Assembly: GCF_004340205.1 (NCBI RefSeq)
Contig: NZ_SLWB01000008.1
Coordinates: forward strand, 1 to 64,000
Direction of reading: 5' to 3'
DNA: 64,000 nucleotides
Origin: Acetobacteroides hydrogenigenes
GTDB lineage: Bacteria; Bacteroidota; Bacteroidia; Bacteroidales; ZOR0009
Below the pieces are notes generated by a model, which saw only the letters and a list, made by a program, of their open reading frames with translations, had not been told where the DNA came from and did no database searches. Positions 10,162 through 64,000 of this stretch are shown piece after piece; position 1 is the stretch's first letter; each line of letters begins with the position of its first letter. The position numbers and the translations under genes are program-made.

Positions 10162-10734
10162 TTAGAATCGCTCTAAAACATTTGCTCTCTTCTTTAAATT
10201 TATGATGGCGTATCTCATTCGTCCAAGTGCGGTATTTACGCTTACATCGGTAAAATCGGCGATTTCCTTAAAGCTTAAGCCTATATAATACCTCAGTATT
10301 ACTACCTCGCGCTGCTCCTTTGGAAGCTCATCAACCAACATCCTTAGGCACCTATCCTGCTGCTTCCGAATTATAGCCTTTTCTGGAGAATCGTCGGTAG
10401 ACATGCCGCGCAGCTTTACCTCTATTGCGCTATTCTCTTCAATGGAAATTGGAAGATCCTTACGGTAGTAGTCTATAACCATGTTACGGGCAATCCGCAT
10501 TAGCCAAGGGACAAACTTTCCGGAATCGTGGTAAGCCCCTTCTACAAGCGATCGGTAGGCCTTTACGAAAACATCTTGTGCTATATCTTCGGCCACATCC
10601 TGCCTCCTAATAAACATACAAATGTAGCCTAGAACTTTTTTTCGATACCGATTATGCAATATTGCAAACGAAGCATCGCTGCCCTTGGCAACTCGCTCTA
10701 CCAATTCGTTATCTGCAAGCAAAGGAGTTTTCAA
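10162..10734 (-). CDS. ECF sigma factor (RpoE-like)
   Basis: About 190 residues if translation starts at the TTG at 10734; another TTG at 10827 would add 31 residues. No ATG is available. Region 2 is FAILHNRYRKKVLGYICMF...AEDIAQDVFVKAYRSL, and region 4 is LPKEQREVVILRYYIGLSFKEIADFTDVSVNTALGRMRYAI, with a full helix-turn-helix. No anti-sigma gene lies next to it, unlike the factor at 1594, so control is likely at transcription or by a distant partner. Monocistronic. Confidence 0.9.
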   Translation of the reverse strand: MKTPLLADNELVERVAKGSDASFAILHNRYRKKVLGYICMFIRRQDVAEDIAQDVFVKAYRSLVEGAYHDSGKFVPWLMRIARNMVIDYYRKDLPISIEENSAIEVKLRGMSTDDSPEKAIIRKQQDRCLRMLVDELPKEQREVVILRYYIGLSFKEIADFTDVSVNTALGRMRYAIINLKKRANVLERF

Positions 10735-60446: not shown

Positions 60447-60614
60447 ATGGCTTACAAAATTAGTGACGATTGCACCGCTTGCGGTACATGTATTGACGAA
60501 TGCCCAGTTGAGGCAATTTCTGCTGGCGATATTTACAAAATCGATCCAGAAGTATGCACCGATTGTGGAACTTGCGCCGATGTTTGCCCAGTAGAAGCAA
60601 TTCATCCTGCTTAG
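60447..60614 (+). CDS. 2[4Fe-4S] clostridial-type ferredoxin
   Basis: 55 residues, MAYKISDDCTACGTCIDECP... with two C-x2-C-x2-C-x3-C-P motifs (Cys 9, 12, 15, 19 and 37, 40, 43, 47) and a pseudo-twofold repeat (CPVEAI in both halves). It is a low-potential electron carrier for hydrogenases and 2-oxoacid oxidoreductases. It has its own promoter and a TTCG-loop terminator at 60637, so it is monocistronic, although it stands next to the redox-sensing operon. Confidence 0.96.
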   Translation: MAYKISDDCTACGTCIDECPVEAISAGDIYKIDPEVCTDCGTCADVCPVEAIHPA

Positions 60615-60636
60615 TCAAACCACTTCAAGAGAATAA

Positions 60637-60660
60637 AATAGGCTTCGGCCTATTTTTTTT
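60637..60660 (+). terminator. Intrinsic terminator of the ferredoxin gene
   Basis: AATAGGC pairs with GCCTATT around a TTCG tetraloop, followed by a T-run. It separates the ferredoxin from the rex-like operon. Confidence 0.92.
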
Positions 60661-60743
60661 ATCAAGCATTGTCCTATTTTAAATCAATGATTTATTTTAT
60701 TACACTTTTATTTAACCAAACCGTCCTATAAAACAACAATTAG

Positions 60744-60761
60744 ATGTTACTGTTATAACAA
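60744..60761. promoter_or_regulatory. Probable Rex operator
   Basis: ATGTTA-CTGTTA-TAACAA matches the Rex consensus TTGTTA-N6-TAACAA at every fixed position except the first. It lies 83 bases upstream of the Rex-like gene, fitting autoregulation. Confidence 0.65.
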
Positions 60762-60812
60762 TATCAAAGACAAACATATCGTTAAATACTGTATTACTGA
60801 TTATTATATTTT

Positions 60813-60831
60813 ATGGCACACATATTGCCAT
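60813..60831. promoter_or_regulatory. Inverted repeat ATGGCA-N7-TGCCAT
   Basis: A six-base dyad 13 bases before the ATG of the Rex-like gene. As RNA it could form a small hairpin close to the ribosome-binding region; as DNA it could be a second operator. Confidence 0.4.
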
Positions 60832-60843
60832 CCACGTAAGCAG

Positions 60844-61491
60844 ATGAATGAAAAAGGATACATACTAACCGAAGAGTTCAGGAAACGAGCATTGCGCTAC
60901 CTTACCTATTTGAAGTTTCAAAAGGTAAAAGGTCGTAATATTTTCGATATTAACGAAATATCTTCAGAATTAGGATACAACAAAGCATCAGTATCTAACG
61001 ACCTTCATCTGTTGGGCATCTACCATTTAAACAATTCAATTCCAATAGGCATTGGCATTGATGCCTTTGAGTCATTTTTGGTTGTCAATCGCCTAAGCGA
61101 GGCATTTTTGATATGTAACAGTAAACAAGCAAAGAAGATAATCCATGCTAAGGAATTAGCCCAGCAAGGTATAAAAGTAGTTGCAGCGTTCGATCCTTCT
61201 CCCAATCTTGAGCCTTACGAGATTGATGCCATAAAGGTTCTAAGTGCCGATAGGATAGACAGCCTTTCTGACCGAATGCATATTCAGTTTATGATTATTG
61301 CTACGGAGAAAGAACAGGCACAGCACGCAGCAAATATTGCAGCAAATGCTGGCGCAAAAGCCATAATAAACATGTCAGGAGTTGAGCTTGTCTTTCCTGA
61401 TGGTATTGCCGGCATCAATACAAATGGGATCGAAAAGCTAGAGGAAGACATCGCTAAAATACAAGCCTTAATGGCATCAAATACGCGTTGA
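60844..61491 (+). CDS. Rex-like redox repressor with degenerate NAD(H)-binding loop
   Basis: 215 residues. The winged-helix domain (1-85) aligns with Rex: RALRYLTYLKFQKVKGRNIF, EISSELGYNKASVSNDLHLLG, IGIGIDAFESFL. The C-terminal Rossmann half keeps GIKVVAAFDPSPN (the Asp that holds the adenosine ribose in Rex), a GAKAIINMSGVEL segment and PDGIAGINTN. Where Rex has the glycine-rich GxGxxG loop, this protein reads FLICNSKQAKKII with no glycine. NADH sensing is therefore doubtful, although the fold and DNA-binding parts look intact. First gene of the operon; the next starts 4 bases after its stop. Confidence 0.85.
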   Translation: MNEKGYILTEEFRKRALRYLTYLKFQKVKGRNIFDINEISSELGYNKASVSNDLHLLGIYHLNNSIPIGIGIDAFESFLVVNRLSEAFLICNSKQAKKIIHAKELAQQGIKVVAAFDPSPNLEPYEIDAIKVLSADRIDSLSDRMHIQFMIIATEKEQAQHAANIAANAGAKAIINMSGVELVFPDGIAGINTNGIEKLEEDIAKIQALMASNTR

Positions 61492-61495
61492 GGAT

Positions 61496-61750
61496 ATGCA
61501 GAAAAAAGTTGAAGTTTTAATTTGCCTTGGCAGCTCTTGCTTTTCCAGAGGAAACAGAGAAATGCTAGAAGCCATAAAAAAGCACCTCAAAGAAAACGAT
61601 CTTGAAGAGAAGGTAAACTTTAAGGGGAAACTCTGCTCAAACATATGCAGTAGCGGACCTACAATTACCATAGATGGAGTTGTATACAAAGAAGTGCGCT
61701 TCAACACTGCAATAACACATATCGAAAACGCCCTTAAACAGCAGCAATGA
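61496..61750 (+). CDS. Thioredoxin-like [2Fe-2S] ferredoxin
   Basis: 84 residues. Cysteines at 10, 15, 47 and 51 (C-x4-C ... C-x3-C, ICLGSSC and LCSNICSSGP), the ligand set of the NuoE/HydC thioredoxin-like [2Fe-2S] fold. It lacks the N-terminal helical part of NuoE and is therefore a stand-alone cluster domain. Likely an electron partner of the sensory hydrogenase encoded next; the genes overlap by 4 bases (ATGA). Confidence 0.93.
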   Translation: MQKKVEVLICLGSSCFSRGNREMLEAIKKHLKENDLEEKVNFKGKLCSNICSSGPTITIDGVVYKEVRFNTAITHIENALKQQQ

Positions 61751-63480
61751 ACTTAGCGAATCCCATATACACCGAGATAAACAACTGCCAGGATTGCTAC
61801 AAGTGCATCCGTCACTGTCCTGTTAAGGGGATAAACGTAGGCCAAGGTAGCGCATCGATTGATGGGGAACGCTGTATATTTTGCGGCAACTGCGTTACCA
61901 TTTGCCCTGCAAACGCAAAGAAAATTCGCAACGACATCAAGGTCGCTCGCAATGTCATAAACAACTCTAGCGTAGTGGTAGCCTCTATCGCTCCATCTTA
62001 CACTACCGAGTTTCCAAACGTTTCCATCTCTAAAATAACGCGTGCGCTTAAAATGCTCGGATTTAGCGCAGTTTCGGAAACGGCACTTGGAGCAGAGGTA
62101 GTATCGAAAGAGACGGCCCATTACATATCGGAGCACGATAAGGGTATTTTTATCTCATCGGCATGTCCTTCGGTAGTTGAGCTAATTTGCAAGTACTACC
62201 CATCTATCAGCGACTCGATAGTGCCAATACATTCGCCGATGGTTACGCACGGTTTGATGATTAAGGAATGGTTTGGCAAGGATGCAAAAACCATCTTCTT
62301 TGGACCATGTATCTCAAAAAAACGCGAAGCCGACAACTTCAAAAATATTATTGACGTAGCACTTACATTCAACGATCTGCGAGAGTGGATGAACGATGAA
62401 GGCATAGACTTTGACCTAATTCCTGAAAACGAGGATACGTTTGAGCCATACACCTCGAATATGGGTTCTATTTACCCTCTTGATGGAGGAATGGTGGCTG
62501 GAGTATCGGCGGATTTGGAGAAGAACAGCACCATATATATGAACTTCTCGGGAACCGACGCTATACGGCAAACGCTTAACAGCATCGACAACTGGGACTC
62601 GAGCCAAAAGCTATTTTTAGAACTGCTTTCGTGTACCGGAGGCTGCATTCATGGTCCAGGGACAGTAACTAAAAATTCAACTGCAGTAAAACGATATAAG
62701 ATACAATCGGAACTTTTCCGAAAAAACAAAAGTGACGCCAAAGCTGCTGCCTACGCTCCAAGTATAAGCATTAGTCGTAGTTTCAGTAACATTTATCCAG
62801 TCCAAAAAAGGCAGCATGCTGAGGCCGATCTTTTCGGATCGTTGAGCGCTATCGGAAAGCTATCTGAAAAAGATGAAATAAACTGCGGAGGCTGCGGATA
62901 CGACAGCTGTCGAGACTTTGCCGCAGCGCTAATCGACGGACAAGCAGAGCGCAACATGTGCGTATCGTACATGCGCAAGGTTGCCAACGATAAAGCAACA
63001 GTACTACTTCAGAAGATGCCCTCGGGAGTCTTGCTCGTAGACGAGGACATGAAGGTTATAGAATCGAACAAGAGCTTTGCCAAGATGATGGGGCCCGAGA
63101 TCGAGATGATCAACGAAACAAACCCAGGACTTGCCGGGGCTAACGTTGCAAAGCTAGTTTCGTTTCATAAGCTTTTCTCGTCGGTGCTTAGCACGGGCAA
63201 AGACATCATGGAGCGCGATGTAAGGTTCAACGATAAGCTTTTTAAGGTATCAATATTTACCGTACTTAAGCATAAGATTGTTTGCGCCATAATGCGCGAT
63301 CTCATTGTTCCTGAAGTTCGCAACGATGAGATTGTAAAGAGAACACAAAAGGTTATCCAAGAAAACCTGGAAACCGTACAAAAAATAGCCTACCTACTTG
63401 GTGAGAATGCATCACGTACCGAAACTATGCTCAACACCATTCTGGAGGCATACCAAATTGACGAAAGCAGTGAAAGATAA
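61747..63480 (+). CDS. Sensory [FeFe]-hydrogenase-like protein with PAS domain
   Basis: 577 residues. Two [4Fe-4S] sites (Cys 14, 17, 20, 24 and 43, 46, 49, 53) precede the H-cluster domain. Its three motifs are L1 ISSACPSVV (Cys140), L2 FFGPCISKKREAD (Cys188) and L3 FLELLSCTGGCIHGPG (Cys296, Cys300), so all four cluster ligands are present. The Cys that relays protons in catalytic enzymes (first C of TSCCPGW) is Ala139, as I recall for putative sensory hydrogenases such as HydS. A further [4Fe-4S] motif follows (Cys 380, 383, 388, 405; NCGGCGYDSC), then a PAS domain at about 415-520 and a helical end. It probably senses H2 or redox state and signals to the phosphatase gene that overlaps its end. 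Confidence 0.92.
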   Translation: MNLANPIYTEINNCQDCYKCIRHCPVKGINVGQGSASIDGERCIFCGNCVTICPANAKKIRNDIKVARNVINNSSVVVASIAPSYTTEFPNVSISKITRALKMLGFSAVSETALGAEVVSKETAHYISEHDKGIFISSACPSVVELICKYYPSISDSIVPIHSPMVTHGLMIKEWFGKDAKTIFFGPCISKKREADNFKNIIDVALTFNDLREWMNDEGIDFDLIPENEDTFEPYTSNMGSIYPLDGGMVAGVSADLEKNSTIYMNFSGTDAIRQTLNSIDNWDSSQKLFLELLSCTGGCIHGPGTVTKNSTAVKRYKIQSELFRKNKSDAKAAAYAPSISISRSFSNIYPVQKRQHAEADLFGSLSAIGKLSEKDEINCGGCGYDSCRDFAAALIDGQAERNMCVSYMRKVANDKATVLLQKMPSGVLLVDEDMKVIESNKSFAKMMGPEIEMINETNPGLAGANVAKLVSFHKLFSSVLSTGKDIMERDVRFNDKLFKVSIFTVLKHKIVCAIMRDLIVPEVRNDEIVKRTQKVIQENLETVQKIAYLLGENASRTETMLNTILEAYQIDESSER

Positions 63481-64000
63481 CCCATTTTTCATAGAAGTTG
63501 ACATGTGGCAGCAAAACTGCAAGGGCCGACCAGTATGCGGCGATGTCTTCCTCTCGAAAAAGATAAAGGAGGAGAATCGCCTAGTTATGGTGCTCTCCGA
63601 CGGTTTGGGTAGCGGCATCAAAGCCAACGTACTGGCATCTCTTACTGCATCAATGGCGGTAAACTATACGCTTTTGAAAGAGCCTATCGACCGAATAGCC
63701 CATACCGTAATGAAAACGCTGCCGGTTGATAGCGAACGAAAAATTAGCTATGCCACCTTCACCATTGTAGATATTGAGTCGGACGGAGAAACAAACGTGG
63801 TGGAGTACGACAACCCATCGTTCGTACTTATCCGCAACGGCAAGGTAATTACGCCCGAAAAGGAAAGCATTACGCTTGAGGAGAGCAGCATCCGCAAAAA
63901 GGTAATGTACCGCTCACACTTCATAGCTCAAAAGGAAGACCGCATGATACTCTTCTCCGATGGGGTTACCCAATCGGGAATGGGCACGCTGCAGATGCCT
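63470..64000 (+). CDS. SpoIIE/PP2C-type serine phosphatase, cut by window end
   Basis: Partial, 177 codons visible and open to the window end. A GTG at 63470 overlaps the hydrogenase gene by 11 bases; an in-frame ATG at 63503 is the alternative. PP2C-like motifs: GRPVCGDVFLSKK (first metal Asp), VMVLSDGLGSGIKAN (the SDGxGxG motif), ISYATFTIVDIE and MILFSDGVTQSG. SpoIIE-type phosphatases act on anti-anti-sigma or similar phosphoproteins. Its fusion-like overlap with a sensory hydrogenase suggests the output of H2/redox sensing is dephosphorylation. Confidence 0.92.
   Translation, partial: MKDNPFFIEVDMWQQNCKGRPVCGDVFLSKKIKEENRLVMVLSDGLGSGIKANVLASLTASMAVNYTLLKEPIDRIAHTVMKTLPVDSERKISYATFTIVDIESDGETNVVEYDNPSFVLIRNGKVITPEKESITLEESSIRKKVMYRSHFIAQKEDRMILFSDGVTQSGMGTLQMP

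Follow-up and report, generated by a model that had tools for sequence, protein, structure and literature searches.

Contig C8 of Acetobacteroides hydrogenigenes (NZ_SLWB01000008.1) was read over its initial 64 kb (hereafter the window), a stretch that ends within an operon that in our view represents a Bacteroidota form of the hfs-type operons, built around a group C sensory [FeFe]-hydrogenase (HydS), a serine phosphatase and a second hydrogenase. For the whole of the scheme proposed below we estimate a probability of about 0.72. The core of the operon is of a known kind, since its arrangement is that of the published hfsBCD genes and of group C sensory hydrogenases with a phosphatase. New are its Bacteroidales form and a divergent, HydS-linked branch of Rex proteins. 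The genome (G000; 3.86 Mb in 32 contigs) was compared with those of two other members of the genus (G001 and G002). On the basis of HydS the nearest named relatives are Bacteroidales, at an identity of 54% or less.

The hydrogenase-phosphatase operon

The four genes described in an earlier note, made from the sequence alone, and their spacings of +4, -4 and -11 bases were borne out by the gene calls. All lie on the forward strand and encode, in this order, a Rex-like protein of 215 amino acids (60844..61491), an 84-residue NuoE-like [2Fe-2S] protein with a thioredoxin fold and a putative role as electron carrier (61496..61750; PF01257, 3.6e-8), HydS itself (577 amino acids; 61747..63480) and a SpoIIE/PP2C-type serine phosphatase of 395 amino acids (63470..64000, continuing to C8:64657). 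The phosphatase starts at the GTG at 63470, a choice that the same start in G001 supports. The earlier description as a compact four-gene operon was right about these genes, but the operon does not end at 64000. There the window cuts the phosphatase gene, and the contig continues the operon to 66425 with two further genes, one for a second [2Fe-2S] protein (C8:64744-64995) and one for a hydrogenase of 476 amino acids (C8:64995-66425) that the curated NCBIfam model assigns to the monomeric group B1 enzymes (515 bits versus a cut-off of 450). Thus, a catalytic hydrogenase does follow beyond 64000, as had been considered, whereas the serine kinase or STAS protein considered alongside it is not part of the operon. 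The order of all six genes is intact in the three members of the genus, and co-transcription is supported, short of proof, by the recurrence of the gene order with close spacing in G001 and G002 as well as in dozens of further genomes. Pfam matches for the window proteins were CoA_binding (4e-5) with a sub-threshold Rex N-terminal domain for the Rex-like protein, 2Fe-2S_thioredx (4e-8) for the 84-residue protein, Fe_hyd_lg_C (1.5e-47), the FeS family PF04060 (4.6e-11) and Fer4 for the hydrogenase, and SpoIIE (4e-11) for the phosphatase. HydE and HydG are encoded in the genome.

HydS consists of two [4Fe-4S] cluster sites, the H-domain, a C-terminal CxxCx4C FeS motif and, directly behind this motif as in known HydS proteins, a PAS-like region. 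All eight Cys residues of the N-terminal clusters are kept, and the four H-cluster ligands read earlier from the sequence (Cys140, Cys188, Cys296 and Cys300) are not only present but invariant in 79 homologues. We compared the three positions that are altered between the catalytic CpI (C299/M353/M497) and the sensory HydS of Thermotoga maritima (TmHydS; Ala131/Gly177/Ser267, PMC10055695), and found Ala139, Gly186 and Ser295, of which Gly186 is invariant in the same homologues. The proton-relay Cys is indeed absent, as had been noted, but its absence is not diagnostic of a sensor, because 35 of these 79 close homologues carry Cys at position 139 (43 have Ala); we rejected it as proof. In the H-domain tree, the groups of which were anchored by the NCBIfam models for A and B1, without named references for group C or D, HydS forms a clade of its own (SH-like approximate likelihood ratio test 99) beside the clade of a second copy, HydS2, with groups A and B each separate. 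HydS passes neither the group A nor the B1 cut-off, and its position outside catalytic group A agrees with the earlier assignment as a sensor. We take C3 of HydDB to be the class of the phosphatase-linked sensory hydrogenases, with which the SpoIIE/PP2C gene next to hydS and the catalytic Asp residues of its product agree. As judged from its residues and phylogeny, HydS is a probable H2-sensing hydrogenase of the group C type.

The SpoIIE-type identity of the adjacent phosphatase was confirmed by the Pfam match and by the catalytic Asp residues (27, 46, 224 and 225 in the numbering of the L011 protein), which are invariant in 38 homologues. Moreover, structure prediction for a close homologue gave the PP2C fold, with matches to SpoIIE, RsbX and RsbU-type phosphatases. 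The C-terminal domain of about 160 amino acids (C8:~64175-64657) is strongly conserved (GGTT, VGTKIN-AHQDP-LPVELEIRR). It has no Pfam family and its fold matches in the PDB, among those listed, are of the PP2C type; possibly it is a signal-input or partner-binding domain.

The pairing of HydS and phosphatase extends well beyond the genus. Among 78 loci found by HydS similarity, hydS is directly followed by the SpoIIE gene in 73, and 50 have the complete series HydS-SpoIIE-[2Fe-2S]-B1 hydrogenase, in Bacteroidales as well as in Alphaproteobacteria; the remaining loci mostly end at contig edges or are without the final two genes. In most related loci hydS has a [2Fe-2S] gene before it. The neighbours further upstream, named from reading the sequences and not from a family search, vary and comprise an iron alcohol dehydrogenase with diaphorase-like and Rex-like genes, NfnAB-like genes, a sigma54-type activator and AdhE. 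The gut alphaproteobacterial loci (L065-L069, L071-L073, L075-L077, L079, L085 and L087) have the same order of ferredoxin, HydS, SpoIIE, ferredoxin and B1 hydrogenase, sometimes behind AdhE. The single alphaproteobacterial HydS included in the tree groups with Bacteroidales sequences, which points to a possible horizontal transfer of the locus.

The Rex-like protein

The predicted structure of the protein at the head of the operon (mean predicted local distance difference test score, pLDDT, of 87) has the winged helix and Rossmann domain of Rex, and its first 39 fold matches are all Rex. It fails the NCBIfam cut-off for Rex (77 versus 130 bits), whereas its paralogue Rex2 passes (174.5 versus 126). 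Mapping of its residues onto the T. maritima Rex-DNA-NAD+ complex (PMC8836258) showed that, like the canonical protein, it has equivalents of Arg12 and of the NAD-binding Asp115. Unlike the canonical protein, it has Ser-Asn in the recognition helix in place of Arg48-Lys49, the key base readers, and Ser and Ile instead of the Gly and Tyr of the wing; the P-loop GxGxxG has become CNSKQA, and Tyr100, which stacks on the nicotinamide, is Ala. A similar degeneration is seen in the Rex-like proteins of G001 and G002, with one Lys retained in the recognition helix of G001. With the DNA-reading and NAD(H)-binding residues lost, the transcription control that the earlier note attributed to this protein is unsupported in that form.

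A set of 65 Rex proteins, 20 of them linked to HydS and 45 not, placed this divergence in a wider frame. The second residue of the recognition helix is basic in 44 of the 45 unlinked proteins versus a single HydS-linked one, and an intact GxGxxG is found in 42 of 44 versus 10 of 20. These counts are not independent, because in the tree the HydS-linked proteins fall outside the main Rex clade and the sole unlinked exception (L092) groups with the protein of the window; therefore, DNA reading may have been lost just once, long ago. Loss of the P-loop is seen in at least three separated places. Between G000 and G002 the ratio of non-synonymous to synonymous substitution (omega) of the Rex-like gene is about 0.07, a value that is indicative only because dS is saturated (2.06), and purifying selection appears to act on the gene. 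Its protein diverges about threefold faster than its neighbours (dN 0.147 versus 0.050 for HydS and 0.040 for SpoIIE).

It is conceivable, though we would put the chance clearly below even, that the HydS-linked Rex branch of the Bacteroidales has been rebuilt such that the Rex operator is no longer read and, in several lineages, NAD(H) no longer bound, and that, through contact between proteins, it connects either H2 or the state of phosphorylation with the true Rex or with the hydrogenase operon. If so, a single Rex scaffold would bring together the sensing of hydrogen and of NADH. A HydS-linked non-canonical branch was not found in a search of open-licence papers, which is weak evidence of novelty. 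The comparison cautions against taking a 'Rex' in a HydS-phosphatase operon for an NADH-sensing repressor.

Rex operators and the canonical Rex

The Rex consensus is TTGTGAANNNNTTCACAA (PMC6391272), with the core TGTKA-N6-TMACA. This core has a single match in the window, at 60745, where 0.19 is expected and 18 of 100 shuffled sequences contained at least one. Motif scan and position weight matrix (PWM) both place there the Rex-operator-like palindrome ATGTTACTGTTATAACAA (TGTTA-N6-TAACA; 60744..60761, no strand assigned), which begins at 60744, about 83 bases 5' of the Rex-like gene, and scores best of the whole upstream region in the PWM scan, at a level that 7 of 500 shuffles reached. In the genome, 12 of the 15 core matches are intergenic versus 4 of the 17 matches of a reversed control pattern (p 0.004). 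Their neighbours are fermentation and redox genes and include pta, PEP carboxykinase (pckA), a gene like pyruvate carboxylase B/oxaloacetate decarboxylase, mmdA, NhaD, nuo (two sites), hydABC, hydS2/rex2 and the operon of the window; at pta, pckA, nuo, hydABC, hydS2/rex2 and the operon the motif precedes the genes. Across the HydS loci 34 Rex sites were found versus 4 for the control, and a site in the operon promoter region occurs in 12 of 77 loci versus 1. Perfect 18-bp palindromes stand shortly 5' of the [2Fe-2S]-HydS genes in L015, L019, L020, L021 and L084; the same five loci have a second Rex-like site about 2.3 kb further upstream, near the sigma54-type activator where this was read.

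The second SpoIIE-HydS pair of the genome (HydS2-SpoIIE2; C7:29116-33028, L009) is divergent from the gene for the canonical Rex2, with a Rex palindrome between them. The pair adjoins hydG/hydE, and the last H-cluster motif of HydS2 is spaced one residue shorter. Judging from the operator positions, the canonical Rex regulon likely includes the operon of the window, with Rex2 as its likely repressor, and Rex2 is the likelier transcriptional input to the operon than the operon's own Rex-like protein. TM0201, the operator of which is present in the T. maritima Rex structure, was considered as a HydS gene and dropped, as it is listed as another hydrogenase (PMC3561251). Directly upstream of the operon, a gene for a two-cluster [4Fe-4S] ferredoxin (60448-60615) is closed by a terminator-like hairpin and T run (~60638-60661) that is kept across the genus.

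Precedents, proposed scheme and alternatives

The earlier note stated that PAS-bearing hydrogenase-like proteins occur beside phosphatases, and for this there is published precedent. The hfsABCD operon of Thermoanaerobacterium (PMC5707799, PMC11837493) encodes the PAS-bearing [FeFe]-hydrogenase HfsB, the serine phosphatase HfsC and a second hydrogenase, HfsD, of group B (PMC8924675). In terms of gene order, hfsB-hfsC-hfsD is matched here by HydS-SpoIIE-[2Fe-2S]-B1 hydrogenase; the operon described here differs in its two [2Fe-2S] genes, its divergent Rex-like gene, its Bacteroidota host and the lack of a recognisable HfsA. A cluster of Ruminococcus albus likewise combines a PAS-containing group C hydrogenase with a putative Ser/Thr phosphatase, through which H2 sensing has already been proposed, and also holds a ferredoxin-only hydrogenase and an alcohol/aldehyde dehydrogenase (PMC6776011). 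There the catalytic partner is called group A1, whereas here it is B1, and the alcohol dehydrogenase is outside the window operon, although several related loci of Bacteroidales and Alphaproteobacteria have it upstream. TmHydS has the same three substitutions around the H-cluster as well as a C-terminal FeS cluster, and carries a PAS domain where HydS of the window has its PAS-like region; that protein has been studied biochemically (PMC10055695), while HydS of the window is known from sequence. Residues, phylogeny, conserved gene order and these precedents together back the pairing of a sensory hydrogenase with a phosphatase.

The operon could thus work as follows. At an H-cluster tuned for sensing, HydS would either bind H2 or come to equilibrium with the ferredoxin pool, and the redox state of HydS would be passed to the C-terminal FeS cluster and the PAS-like region, perhaps via the co-encoded [2Fe-2S] proteins. 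The state of HydS would then switch the adjacent phosphatase and lead to dephosphorylation of some serine/threonine substrate; the putative conversion of H2 into protein dephosphorylation is plausible. The outcome might tune H2 evolution by the B1 hydrogenase relative to other electron sinks. At the level of transcription, the operator positions suggest that the canonical Rex encoded beside HydS2-SpoIIE2 on C7 sets expression of the operon along with that of hydABC, nuo, pta and pckA. The Rex-like protein, having the fold without the DNA-reading or NAD(H) chemistry, would act otherwise, for instance by pairing with the true Rex or opposing it, or at the protein level within the relay from HydS to the phosphatase.

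Several points weigh against this scheme. H2 sensing, the passage of the signal to the phosphatase and the phosphatase target are inferred. The PAS domain reported earlier stands as to its position, but its score is below the Pfam cut-off (PAS_8, 17.0 versus 21.8 bits, E 0.005). Four HATPase_c_2 and two STAS matches were found in the genome, none of them in or beside the operon, and a partner switch with an RsbW-like kinase and a STAS protein was rejected since all these genes lie elsewhere. One end of the palindrome at 60744 deviates from the 18-base consensus, and the core is not in excess in the genome (15 matches versus 17 for the control), where only the placement of the matches stands out. 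The upstream footprint showed that the palindrome is not conserved at the same place in G001, which has a comparable one near the start codon, or in G002, which lacks a comparable site; therefore, the evidence for this promoter alone is moderate.

The same data can be read in other ways. Rather than a sensor, HydS might chiefly be a catalytic hydrogenase of slow turnover, or might exchange electrons with the B1 enzyme, with the phosphatase merely co-inherited, which would fit the invariant H-cluster ligands, the relay Cys of many homologues and the measurable turnover of TmHydS (PMC10055695). We consider this unlikely, as SpoIIE adjoins HydS in nearly all loci and also in the second copy within the genome. 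Moreover, when hfsB is deleted in Thermoanaerobacterium, more ethanol is obtained and the NADH-linked activity of alcohol dehydrogenase goes up, and deletion of the whole operon does not alter the product pattern likewise, from which regulation was inferred by the authors (PMC5707799). For the Rex-like gene, its first place in the operon behind an operator-like palindrome, together with the Rex fold and the NAD-binding Asp, would suit a functional repressor that senses NADH and controls its own operon, but the changes in recognition helix, wing, P-loop and nicotinamide-stacking residue, and the rarity of the second basic residue among HydS-linked proteins, make this quite improbable. Functionless decay, to which the fast divergence and the loss of two functional sites could point, seems about as improbable: the frame is open in three species and always heads the operon in the genus, and the low omega (at saturated dS) and the confidently predicted fold argue for retention.

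A sensory hydrogenase operon of the kind preferred here bears on how group C hydrogenases pass their signal and to what, and on the choice of gut and rumen fermenters between hydrogen and other electron sinks, where a group B [FeFe]-hydrogenase was found in 2025 to be the main H2 producer of the gut (PMC12578642). The compact Bacteroidales operon, with sensor, phosphatase, group B enzyme, Rex-operator-like site and non-canonical Rex, forms a small and testable set of parts.

Other [FeFe]-hydrogenase genes of the genome have features of their own. In the region C7:6137-14786 (L008), the bifurcating hydABC operon is directly preceded by genes for DRTGG, HATPase_c_2, a short third-type [FeFe]-hydrogenase-like protein, DRTGG, PHP and HATPase proteins, with a Rex-operator-like site at 10211; the placement of the short paralogue in group D has only a single long branch and the gene context behind it. 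A group A6-type HydA on C2 (L010:5724-7520) reads TSCSPGW, with Ser apparently at the ligand position of CpI C300.

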